A stretch of DNA of 32,803 nucleotides from Candidatus Woesearchaeota archaeon (lineage in GTDB: Archaea > Nanobdellota > Nanobdellia > Woesearchaeales > ARS49), in NCBI GenBank assembly GCA_023266895.1, contig JAHFOI010000009.1, forward strand, positions 1-32,803, given 5' to 3'. Below the pieces are notes generated by a model that saw only the letters and a list, made by a program, of their open reading frames with translations, was not told the origin of the DNA and searched no databases. A program made the position numbers and the translations under genes. Positions 3,994-22,917 of this stretch are shown piece by piece (within the stretch, counting starts at the first letter, position 1; every line of letters begins with the position of its first letter).

Positions 3994-4392
3994 TCAACAA
4001 ACAGGTATTACTCCTTTCACTTTTTGAAGTGTTTCATCAAATGTTGCAAGATACTCTATGTTAAGCGCACGCATTGCTGCCACGAGGGTGCAGTCTGTAA
4101 AACTAATTTTTTGTGTTTGAAACAAATTCCATGCTTCCTGAAAAATTCCTTCATGAATTCTGAGCAAGCGTATCTCGCTCGTGAGAATGCTGTTTCCGAG
4201 AGCAATGGCGCAGTCTTTGTTTTTTGTTCTTCTCAAGGTTACGGTGACTGCTTCATCAAACACATAATCAGTGGTTATGGGCAGTCCATACTTGTGCAAA
4301 AATATTTCTTTAAGCAGGCTAACTGCTCGTTTGTGGGTTGTGTCTTGTTCGTTATAGTATGCAACGAACACGTTTGTATCAATCAAAATCAA
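3994..4392 (-). CDS. PIN-domain toxin (VapC-like)
   Basis: MILIDTNVFVAYYNEQDTTHKRA...ISFTDCTLVAAMRALNIEYLATFDE. Confidence 0.88.
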   Translation of the reverse strand: MILIDTNVFVAYYNEQDTTHKRAVSLLKEIFLHKYGLPITTDYVFDEAVTVTLRRTKNKDCAIALGNSILTSEIRLLRIHEGIFQEAWNLFQTQKISFTDCTLVAAMRALNIEYLATFDETLQKVKGVIPVC

Positions 4393-4604
4393 TAAAGCAC
4401 CTCATCAATTTCGCTACTGCTTTTTTCAGTGCCTTTTCCCCAAGGTATTGGTTTTAATTGGAAAAAAGATTTTTGTGGTTTGTGGTCAACGAATTGTTTC
4501 ATGGCAAGGGTTATGAGTTTGCCTACAGTGGTTCCTTCTCGTGCTGCTGCTGATTTAAATTCCCTAAATACTGCTTCATCAACTTCGCGAACGCTTACCT
4601 GCAT
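4389..4604 (-). CDS. Antitoxin (VapB/RHH-like) for adjacent PIN toxin
   Basis: MQVSVREVDEAVFREFKSAAAREGTTVGKLITLAMKQFV; start moved to Met28 of the ORF (4604), just downstream of TATA atttaaat. Confidence 0.75.
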   Translation of the reverse strand: MQVSVREVDEAVFREFKSAAAREGTTVGKLITLAMKQFVDHKPQKSFFQLKPIPWGKGTEKSSSEIDEVLY

Positions 4605-4616
4605 AAAATCACCTAA

Positions 4617-4634
4617 TGTTTGACATGTTTGACA
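4617..4634. repeat. Tandem 9-bp repeat TGTTTGACA x2 (putative operator)
   Basis: TGTTTGACATGTTTGACATG between the TATA box (4636-4645, minus) and start of the antitoxin gene. Confidence 0.5.
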
Positions 4635-4674
4635 TGTATTTAAATCTTTCTTGCAGGGTTGTGTTTTCATGTGC

Positions 4675-5148
4675 TTATCCTGCACTGTCCATTAAATACT
4701 GTACAACTGCGGGGTCTGTTAGGAATGCTTCTCGTTTTATTTCATCAACAATGTAGTGGACTTGAATGTCTTTCACTCCGTATTTTTGGTCGAGAGCATC
4801 CAGAAATTCCTGAAATTCTTTCATGTGCTTAAATACGCACTCTGCGAGAAAATCGTACTTGTTGTTTATTCTGTAGATTGTGTTTACATTCCAGTGTGCT
4901 TCAAGAAAGCGTTGCACAGTGTCTTTTGCTTGTTTTGGCGCGCGCAGAAGTATGTGTGCTTTTGTGCTATAGCCTAAGGCAGTGAAATTCATGAGGGCTA
5001 TGTGTTTGGTGTAGAGTGCTCCGTCTTGGGTTTTGATGTGGTCAAAGAGCGTGCTCACAGGAATGCCTGTTTTTCTAGACAGTTCTGTGAGGGGTATTCT
5101 GCTGTTTTGCCGTAAATGTGCTGCAATTATCCAGTCTTTTTTGTTCAT
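4675..5148 (-). CDS. Lrp/AsnC-type transcriptional regulator
   Basis: HTH RIPLTELSRKTGIPVSTLFDHIK followed by an Lrp-like effector region. Confidence 0.75.
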   Translation of the reverse strand: MNKKDWIIAAHLRQNSRIPLTELSRKTGIPVSTLFDHIKTQDGALYTKHIALMNFTALGYSTKAHILLRAPKQAKDTVQRFLEAHWNVNTIYRINNKYDFLAECVFKHMKEFQEFLDALDQKYGVKDIQVHYIVDEIKREAFLTDPAVVQYLMDSAG

Positions 5149-11518: not shown

Positions 11519-11593
11519 CTTCCGATTTTTTCGTAAAGTTTCCGGCTTTTTCTTAGTAACACACTTAAATAAAGAAAACAATAAAAAAAAGAC
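11519..11593 (+). promoter_or_regulatory. 75-bp conserved promoter module, copy A
   Basis: 70/75 identical without gaps to 22721-22795; contains TATA cttaaata (11564-11571) centred about 26.5 bp before tRNA-like position 1. Confidence 0.85.
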
Positions 11594-11717
11594 GCCGGCG
11601 TAGACTAATCTGGTAAGTCGCCGACCTGAACCGTCGGTATCTGAAAAGATATCTGGGTTCAAAAATGTTGTGGTTTTTGGCGACAGAATCACTACACTGA
11701 AACTCCCAGCGCCGGCG
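11594..11717 (+). tRNA. Type II tRNA-like gene A, anticodon GAA, G73, with 40-nt T-loop intron (11664-11703)
   Basis: Acceptor GCCGGCG/CGCCGGC; D-stem GACT/AGTC with GG in the loop; anticodon arm CCGAC-CTGAACC-GTCGG; V-arm TATCT-GAAA-AGATA; T-stem CTGGG/CCCAG; BHB TTCA/TGAA with bulges AAA and ACT; spliced T-loop TTCAAAT. Confidence 0.82.
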
Positions 11718-18897: not shown

Positions 18898-18995
18898 TGC
18901 GCCCGGCAGGATTCGAACCTGCGAAGGCACTAAGCCAACGGTTCTCTCAGCAATGTTCTTGAGACCGTCACGTTTGACCACTTCGCTACAGGCGC
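18898..18995 (-). tRNA. tRNA-Leu(CAA) with 14-nt canonical intron (18944-18957)
   Basis: GCGCCTG/CGGGCGC acceptor, A73, T-arm GCAGG-TTCGAAT-CCTGC; BHB CTCA/TGAG with 3-nt bulges AGA and AGA; spliced loop CTCAAGA; no encoded CCA. Confidence 0.93.
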
Positions 18996-22720: not shown

Positions 22721-22795
22721 CTTCCGCTTTTTTCGTAAAGTTTGCGGCTTTTTCTTAGTAAAACACTTAAATAAAGAAAAAAATAAAAAATAGAC
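22721..22795 (+). promoter_or_regulatory. 75-bp conserved promoter module, copy B
   Basis: 70/75 identical to 11519-11593; TATA cttaaata at 22766-22773. Confidence 0.85.
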
Positions 22796-22917
22796 GCCAG
22801 TGTGAGCCAACCAGGTACGCTGACAGCCTGATACGCTGTTGTTCACAAGAACTTCCGGGTTCAAAAACCTTTCGGTTTCGTCAGCATTCCGTCGGGCTGA
22901 ATTTCCCGGCGCTGGCG
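22796..22917 (+). tRNA. Type II tRNA-like gene B, anticodon GAT, G73, with 38-nt T-loop intron (22866-22903)
   Basis: Acceptor GCCAGTG/CGCTGGC; D-stem AGCC/CGCT (3 bp plus C-C); anticodon arm ACAGC-CTGATAC-GCTGT; V-arm GTTC-ACAA-GAAC; T-stem CCGGG/CCCGG; BHB TTCA/TGAA with bulges AAA and TTT; spliced T-loop TTCAAAT. Confidence 0.82.

Follow-up and report, generated by a model that had tools for sequence, protein, structure and literature searches.

The window, by which we mean the entire 32,803-nt stretch of DNA analysed here, carries at 11594-11717 on the forward strand a complete type II tRNA gene (copy 1) with G73 and a predicted 40-nt T-loop intron at position 59/60. Its cloverleaf comprises a 7-bp acceptor stem, U8, a 4-bp D stem with GG, a 5-bp anticodon stem with the loop C-U-GAA-C-C (and thus no purine at position 37, R37), a variable arm capped by a GAAA loop and a T arm, and the acceptor branch is of the 7/5 type. 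An earlier sequence-only reading had described this full cloverleaf, with its type II body, GAA anticodon and G73, and we confirm it; that reading dealt with copy 1 only, and both a second copy (22796-22917) and the self-complementarity of the introns come from the present analysis. The features of the two copies are as follows.

11532-11545, forward strand: promoter palindrome of copy 1, CGTAAAGTTTCCGG
11561-11573, forward strand: TATA-like element of copy 1, CACTTAAATAAAG, ~30 nt upstream of the mature 5' end
11594-11663, forward strand: 5' exon of copy 1 (positions 1-59), with acceptor 5' strand, D arm, anticodon arm, variable arm, T stem 5' strand and TTCAAA
11628-11630, forward strand: anticodon GAA of copy 1, within the 5' exon
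11638-11652, forward strand: variable arm of copy 1, within the 5' exon
11664-11703, forward strand: predicted bulge-helix-bulge (BHB) intron of copy 1 at 59/60 in the T-loop, from the BHB motif and conservation
11704-11717, forward strand: 3' exon of copy 1, with U60, T stem 3' strand, acceptor 3' strand and G73; CCA is not encoded
22734-22746, forward strand: promoter palindrome of copy 2, CGTAAAGTTTGCG
22796-22865, forward strand: 5' exon of copy 2, loop CTGATAC, anticodon GAU
22866-22903, forward strand: predicted BHB intron of copy 2, 38 nt, carrying the family motif CCTTTCGGT
22904-22917, forward strand: 3' exon of copy 2, ending in G73

Joined in silico, the exons of copy 1 form an 84-mer that ARAGORN calls as tRNA-Phe(GAA), even though the type II body and G73 set it apart from a tRNA-Phe, in which GAA goes with a type I body. 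The unspliced gene received no call from ARAGORN and was not detected by Rfam: at the gathering score, the sole Rfam 15 match in the window was the tRNA at 18898-18995 (reverse strand), an intron-containing type II tRNA that is apparently tRNA-Leu(CAA), and all other matches were at chance level. As the standard finders used missed the tRNA-like genes, tRNA counts in these genomes are incomplete. The fold of copy 1 has a z-score of -3.86, with 0 of 200 shuffled sequences equally stable, and a chance origin of the architecture is ruled out by its being common to relatives. Elsewhere in the window, two gene pairs (186-871 and 3994-4685, reverse strand) resemble, judged by translation only, a PIN-domain toxin with a small antitoxin-like partner.

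With covariance model R1, six tRNA-like copies were found in the source genome (1.09 Mb): the two in the window (contig C46) and one each on contigs C31, C21, C13 and C37. The copies on C13 and C37 share 81% identity across 286 bp, promoter sequence included, and their introns of ~140 nt have extra sequence in common, with about 95 nt of it conserved in both (L196 and L197). We considered these two as decayed pseudogenes and rejected the idea, as their acceptor and T stems are intact, lying further 3' past the long introns. The same genome encodes canonical tRNA-Ser genes with GGA, GCU, UGA and CGA anticodons.

A CGTAA-type palindrome lies within 150 nt upstream of all six of these copies and of none of 30 canonical tRNA genes. 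Across genomes a looser motif precedes 15 of 64 members, and the exact form therefore drifts; where a TATA-like element was found, it mostly sits ~30 nt ahead of the mature 5' end, the spacing of ordinary tRNA genes. The motif is not exclusive to the family, since it also precedes a few protein genes, including four-helix-bundle-like and nuclease-like ones. Arrays of CCGTAAACTTTCCGG-like palindromes spaced ~30 nt apart occur upstream of several family copies (L034, upstream of 1572 on the reverse strand, L188 and L190) and also where contigs C5 and C19 overlap at their ends, and look like multiple sites of a regulator. In five loci (L082, L084, L112, L116, L120) a hairpin, perfect or nearly so, lies immediately 5' of the tRNA-like sequence and directly abuts the acceptor stem, and in 46 of 64 members the base at -1 is C, which could pair with G73.

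The 5' bulge begins with AA in 95/95 non-canonical members; 93/95 have a 3' bulge of exactly three bases (the third always T, 93/93, the second free); and the central BHB helix is fully paired in 86/95 and co-varies, TTCG occurring with CGAA. The arrangement is thus that of a BHB motif (3-nt bulge, 4-bp helix, 3-nt bulge), and cutting at the standard positions joins the exons into a normal tRNA, with the T-loop reading TTCAAAT (83), TTCGAAT (8) or CTCAAAT (2) among the 93. Both the splicing endonuclease EndA (PF01974) and the ligase RtcB (PF01139) are encoded, and 59/60 is a known archaeal intron position (PMC4090602). Because the 3' bulge ends in T without exception and the joined T-loop is normal, splicing of the tRNA-like genes at 59/60 is strongly supported by sequence conservation, in line with the T-loop BHB intron that had been proposed for copy 1, a predicted motif that is conserved in relatives. 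Five members (L185, L205, L206, L222, L223) have very short predicted introns of 16-18 nt, and the sequence of the T stem 5' strand often recurs at the 3' end of these introns, making a second T-arm-like hairpin possible.

In related genomes the copy number reaches about a dozen, with a patchy distribution, so that a degenerate pseudo-tRNA absent from relatives, the outcome that would have spoken against the earlier reading of copy 1, is not what is found. Members were gathered with one covariance model, which may have passed over strongly diverged relatives. Of 281 genomes in a class-level survey, 22 had scores below 1e-13, on E-values that are rough owing to a short calibration and with several of the matches being true tRNA-Ser. 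The exact T-arm and intron pattern occurred in 39 stretches of a set with one genome for each of 85,462 prokaryote species, all of them from Woesearchaeota, Nanoarchaeia, an archaeal record of the same set or Aenigmatarchaeota-labelled records, the last corresponding to genome G004 of the source genome's own family. A viral origin was rejected, as the exact pattern had 0 matches among 2.9 million viral contigs. By these searches, the family appears to occur only in Woesearchaeota and close kin. Copies lie at syntenic loci across genera, but no protein gene recurs beside most of them; the neighbours are mixed housekeeping genes, and a dedicated partner protein gene was rejected on this ground. 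Genuine tRNA-Ser genes with T-loop introns, some with an additional anticodon-loop intron, were also observed in the same order (L093, L094, L100, L142, L037), and are a likely source of the tRNA-like family.

Measured against an elongator tRNA-Ser, the tRNA-like genes have the type II body, G73 and the 7/5 branch, but not the serine anticodon (NGA or GCU) nor, at family level, the core features. Serine determinants are kept: G73 in 95/97 members, G1:C72 in 96/97 and a nearly invariant long variable arm, which bears out the serine-type body with a mismatched anticodon suggested for copy 1. Eleven anticodons occur among the 87 non-canonical members (GAA, GAU, GAG, CAG, AAG, GUC, GAC, CAA, CUC, GCC and UAA), and they change at syntenic loci: beside rps7/rps12 the loop is CCCTCAA (CUC) in L105 and TTGAAAA (GAA) in L110, and beside an Lsm-like gene it is CCGAAAC in L080 and TTGTCAA in L131, the neighbours having been named by reading translations. 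U33 or purine-37 is broken in 29/87 members, so that the caution previously voiced over C37 was well placed, and U8 is lost in 22/97. The complete six-feature core (U8, A14, GG, A21, U33, R37) is present in 38/97 members versus 24/25 canonical tRNA-Ser genes from the same model search (p=1.2e-7). Since SerRS recognises its substrate through G73 and the long variable arm, regardless of the anticodon (PMC9976931), serine charging is the natural expectation, and from their sequences the tRNA-like RNAs are most likely charged with serine.

Whether such RNAs decode is a separate matter. The GAA of copy 1 had been taken as a possible sign of a chimera reading UUY codons; as a family property we reject this, as the anticodons vary, including at syntenic loci, a normal tRNA-Phe(GAA) is present (L011), and the EF-2 encoded in the window shows an ordinary alignment to archaeal EF-2 and therefore gives no sign of general UUY reassignment. 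In a broader form, the family could be an archaeal counterpart of allo-tRNAs, charged with serine and inserting it at NUN codons (Phe, Leu, Ile, Val) at a low level or under particular conditions, restrained by the intron pairing described below and by the promoter. The intact serine identity elements and the canonical spliced T-loop are compatible with this, as is A35, found in 81/87 members (93%), which makes nearly all anticodons match NUN codons; bacterial allo-tRNAs with non-serine anticodons, moreover, insert serine in E. coli (PMC7609411). We nevertheless regard it as unlikely, given the broken U33, R37 and U8 positions, the anticodons that differ at syntenic loci and the presence of canonical tRNAs that read Phe, Leu, Ile and Val codons. 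The A35 bias would go unexplained if the loop never read codons; predicted ensembles often have the anticodon loop base-paired to UUCA of the T-loop, and this pairing may account for it. Compared with the UUY chimera, the other option raised for copy 1, a non-decoding tRNA mimic, is the better fit.

The introns are complementary to the 5' half of their own tRNA, as supported by sequence comparisons within and between genomes. In copy 1, intron GGCGAC (11679-11684) is complementary to GTCGCC (11617-11622) and intron GGTT (11672-11675) to AACC (11629-11632), the match to the own anticodon arm being modest; in copy 2, the D-stem/anticodon-stem strand contains GCTGAC, the complement of intron GTCAGC. 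Across members, the duplex energy of intron and own anticodon arm averaged -12.1 versus ~-9.3 kcal/mol for shuffled partners (z=-8.5). With partners shuffled only within genomes, the effect held for the anticodon arm (z=-6.2, 0/5000) and for the stretch from D-loop to anticodon arm (D-loop..AC3; z=-5.8, 0/5000), permutations that control for genome and remove shared descent only in part. For this stretch in the source genome, the value was -18.1 for the own intron versus -12.9 for other copies, and in 25 members from other genomes the effect recurred (z=-3.8, 1/5000); the anticodon-arm version was not significant in other families (z=-1.4). Loop-only matching among 21 members with like stems gave z=3.6 (5/20000), position 38 pairing with the anchored intron base in 16 of the 21. 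L110 pairs at 17/17 positions and its syntenic counterpart L105 at 15, with quite different sequences. Normalised whole-region interaction energies against foreign introns gave a median rank of 15 of 61, weaker than the duplex tests, and true tRNA-Ser genes with T-loop introns showed no such matching in the six that were testable.

Three further observations on the introns were discarded. Wobble bias (GU 46 versus AC 15) was set aside as proof of RNA pairing, since shuffled partners also give 0.70; in short-intron families the intron start looks by eye like a copy of the anticodon stem 3' strand, suggestively but not significantly; and the variable-arm loop as a complement of the intron motif CCTTNCGG was rejected because, on inspection, the N of the motif does not co-vary.

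Self-complementarity also bears on a second alternative, in which the released and probably circular intron would be the working part, acting as an antisense RNA that binds other targets or, in the spliced tRNA-like RNA, the anticodon region, with the tRNA body as its carrier. The complementarity itself, the motif RCYTTNCGGT kept across genera and the presence of EndA and RtcB would suit such a role, but the motif is missing from many members of other families and it is the exons, not the intron, that are best conserved; we thus consider this alternative quite improbable.

Folding predictions indicate what intron pairing might do. For ~14 of 62 members the prediction favours a nested fold over the cloverleaf: besides the acceptor stem and D arm, anticodon arm and intron form a 12-17-bp helix, and the 3' end of the intron makes a short hairpin with the T stem 3' strand. 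A version with the intron paired to the D-loop and anticodon 5' strand is seen in other members, and for copy 1 the predicted optimum is the cloverleaf. Both alternative folds exclude the T stem and the BHB, and therefore splicing. On 15 members, covariation is seen for the cloverleaf (9 pairs with double changes, 0.301 versus 0.120 shuffled), including the T stem and acceptor, and for the competing long helix (10/17 pairs with double changes, 0.384 versus 0.244 shuffled and 0.124 at best when slid), the latter in members chosen for alternative folding or pairing and hence partly circular, which the permutation tests are not. The predicted folds suggest that intron pairing may act as a splice gate.

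Covariation also weighs against a third alternative, in which a duplicated tRNA-Ser decays without function or spreads as a passive selfish repeat, its tRNA shape reflecting recent descent. The patchy distribution, the copy numbers of up to about a dozen and the relaxed core nucleotides are what this would predict, but the covariation in T stem and acceptor, the invariant splice-site nucleotides, the dedicated promoter, the synteny across genera and the complementarity to the own intron argue for selection, and we hold simple decay or selfish spread to be very unlikely.

Taken together, we give about an even chance to a family of serylatable, splice-gated and mostly non-decoding tRNA-like RNAs that would descend from a tRNA-Ser with a T-loop intron. 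Each gene, with its own promoter and extra palindromic element, would be transcribed from near the tRNA 5' end. Before splicing, the intron would pair with the half from D-loop to anticodon, as permutation and covariation suggest, and this fold, in competition with the T stem and BHB, could hold the precursor in an unspliceable, non-tRNA form until it refolds. The tRNA splicing endonuclease would then remove the 59/60 intron and RtcB would join the exons, yielding, as conservation indicates, an 84-nt serine-type tRNA-like RNA. This mature RNA seems to keep what SerRS and end processing need and not what decoding needs, and is therefore most likely serine-charged and used mainly off the ribosome, perhaps as a regulatory or serine-donor RNA. 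It is possible, though we propose it only tentatively, that the precursor is a self-locking, bistable pre-tRNA, in which the T-loop intron represents an antisense copy, now diverging, of the anticodon/D region of the same RNA and folding decides splicing into a serine-accepting product, giving a regulated non-decoding RNA across an archaeal order.

Searches of the open-access literature on Woesearchaeota tRNA introns, archaeal allo-tRNAs and intron-anticodon pairing yielded no description of these genes, and they apparently form an undescribed family that combines a serine tRNA body, a shifting non-serine anticodon and a self-pairing intron. If this holds, an archaeal serine-type tRNA-like family would join the few cases in which body and anticodon disagree, and a tRNA intron would be evolving in concert with a distant part of its own precursor, the anticodon arm. 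Serylation of tRNAs with non-serine anticodons in these archaea, and a tRNA intron as a folding switch, become directly testable.

Among known systems, nematode nev-tRNAs are variable-arm tRNAs with the anticodons of other amino acids; they resemble the tRNA-like family, by description, in both traits, but are eukaryotic and have no T-loop intron. In eukaryotic pre-tRNAs, the anticodon-loop intron pairs with the anticodon region and helps splicing; pairing within the own precursor is alike, whereas the tRNA-like intron lies in the T-loop and its pairing competes with the splice motif. The serylated tRNA-Sec likewise has a long variable arm and G73, but its acceptor branch is 13 bp and its anticodon UCA, compared with 7+5 bp and no UCA among the 87 members. 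The nearest relatives in concept are the allo-tRNAs, reportedly the subject of Mukai et al. 2017. Bacterial allo-tRNAs share the serine-type class II body, many non-serine anticodons and several copies, and some are thought to be non-decoding (PMC7609411); they have an 8/4 or 9/3 acceptor branch, in contrast to the 7/5 branch of the archaeal family with its self-complementary 59/60 BHB intron. Archaeal tRNA genes with non-canonical BHB introns, including at 59/60, share intron position and splicing signals with it (PMC4090602), but those are ordinary decoding tRNAs, whereas the tRNA-like family combines an anticodon at odds with its body and an intron that matches the anticodon half of the same RNA.
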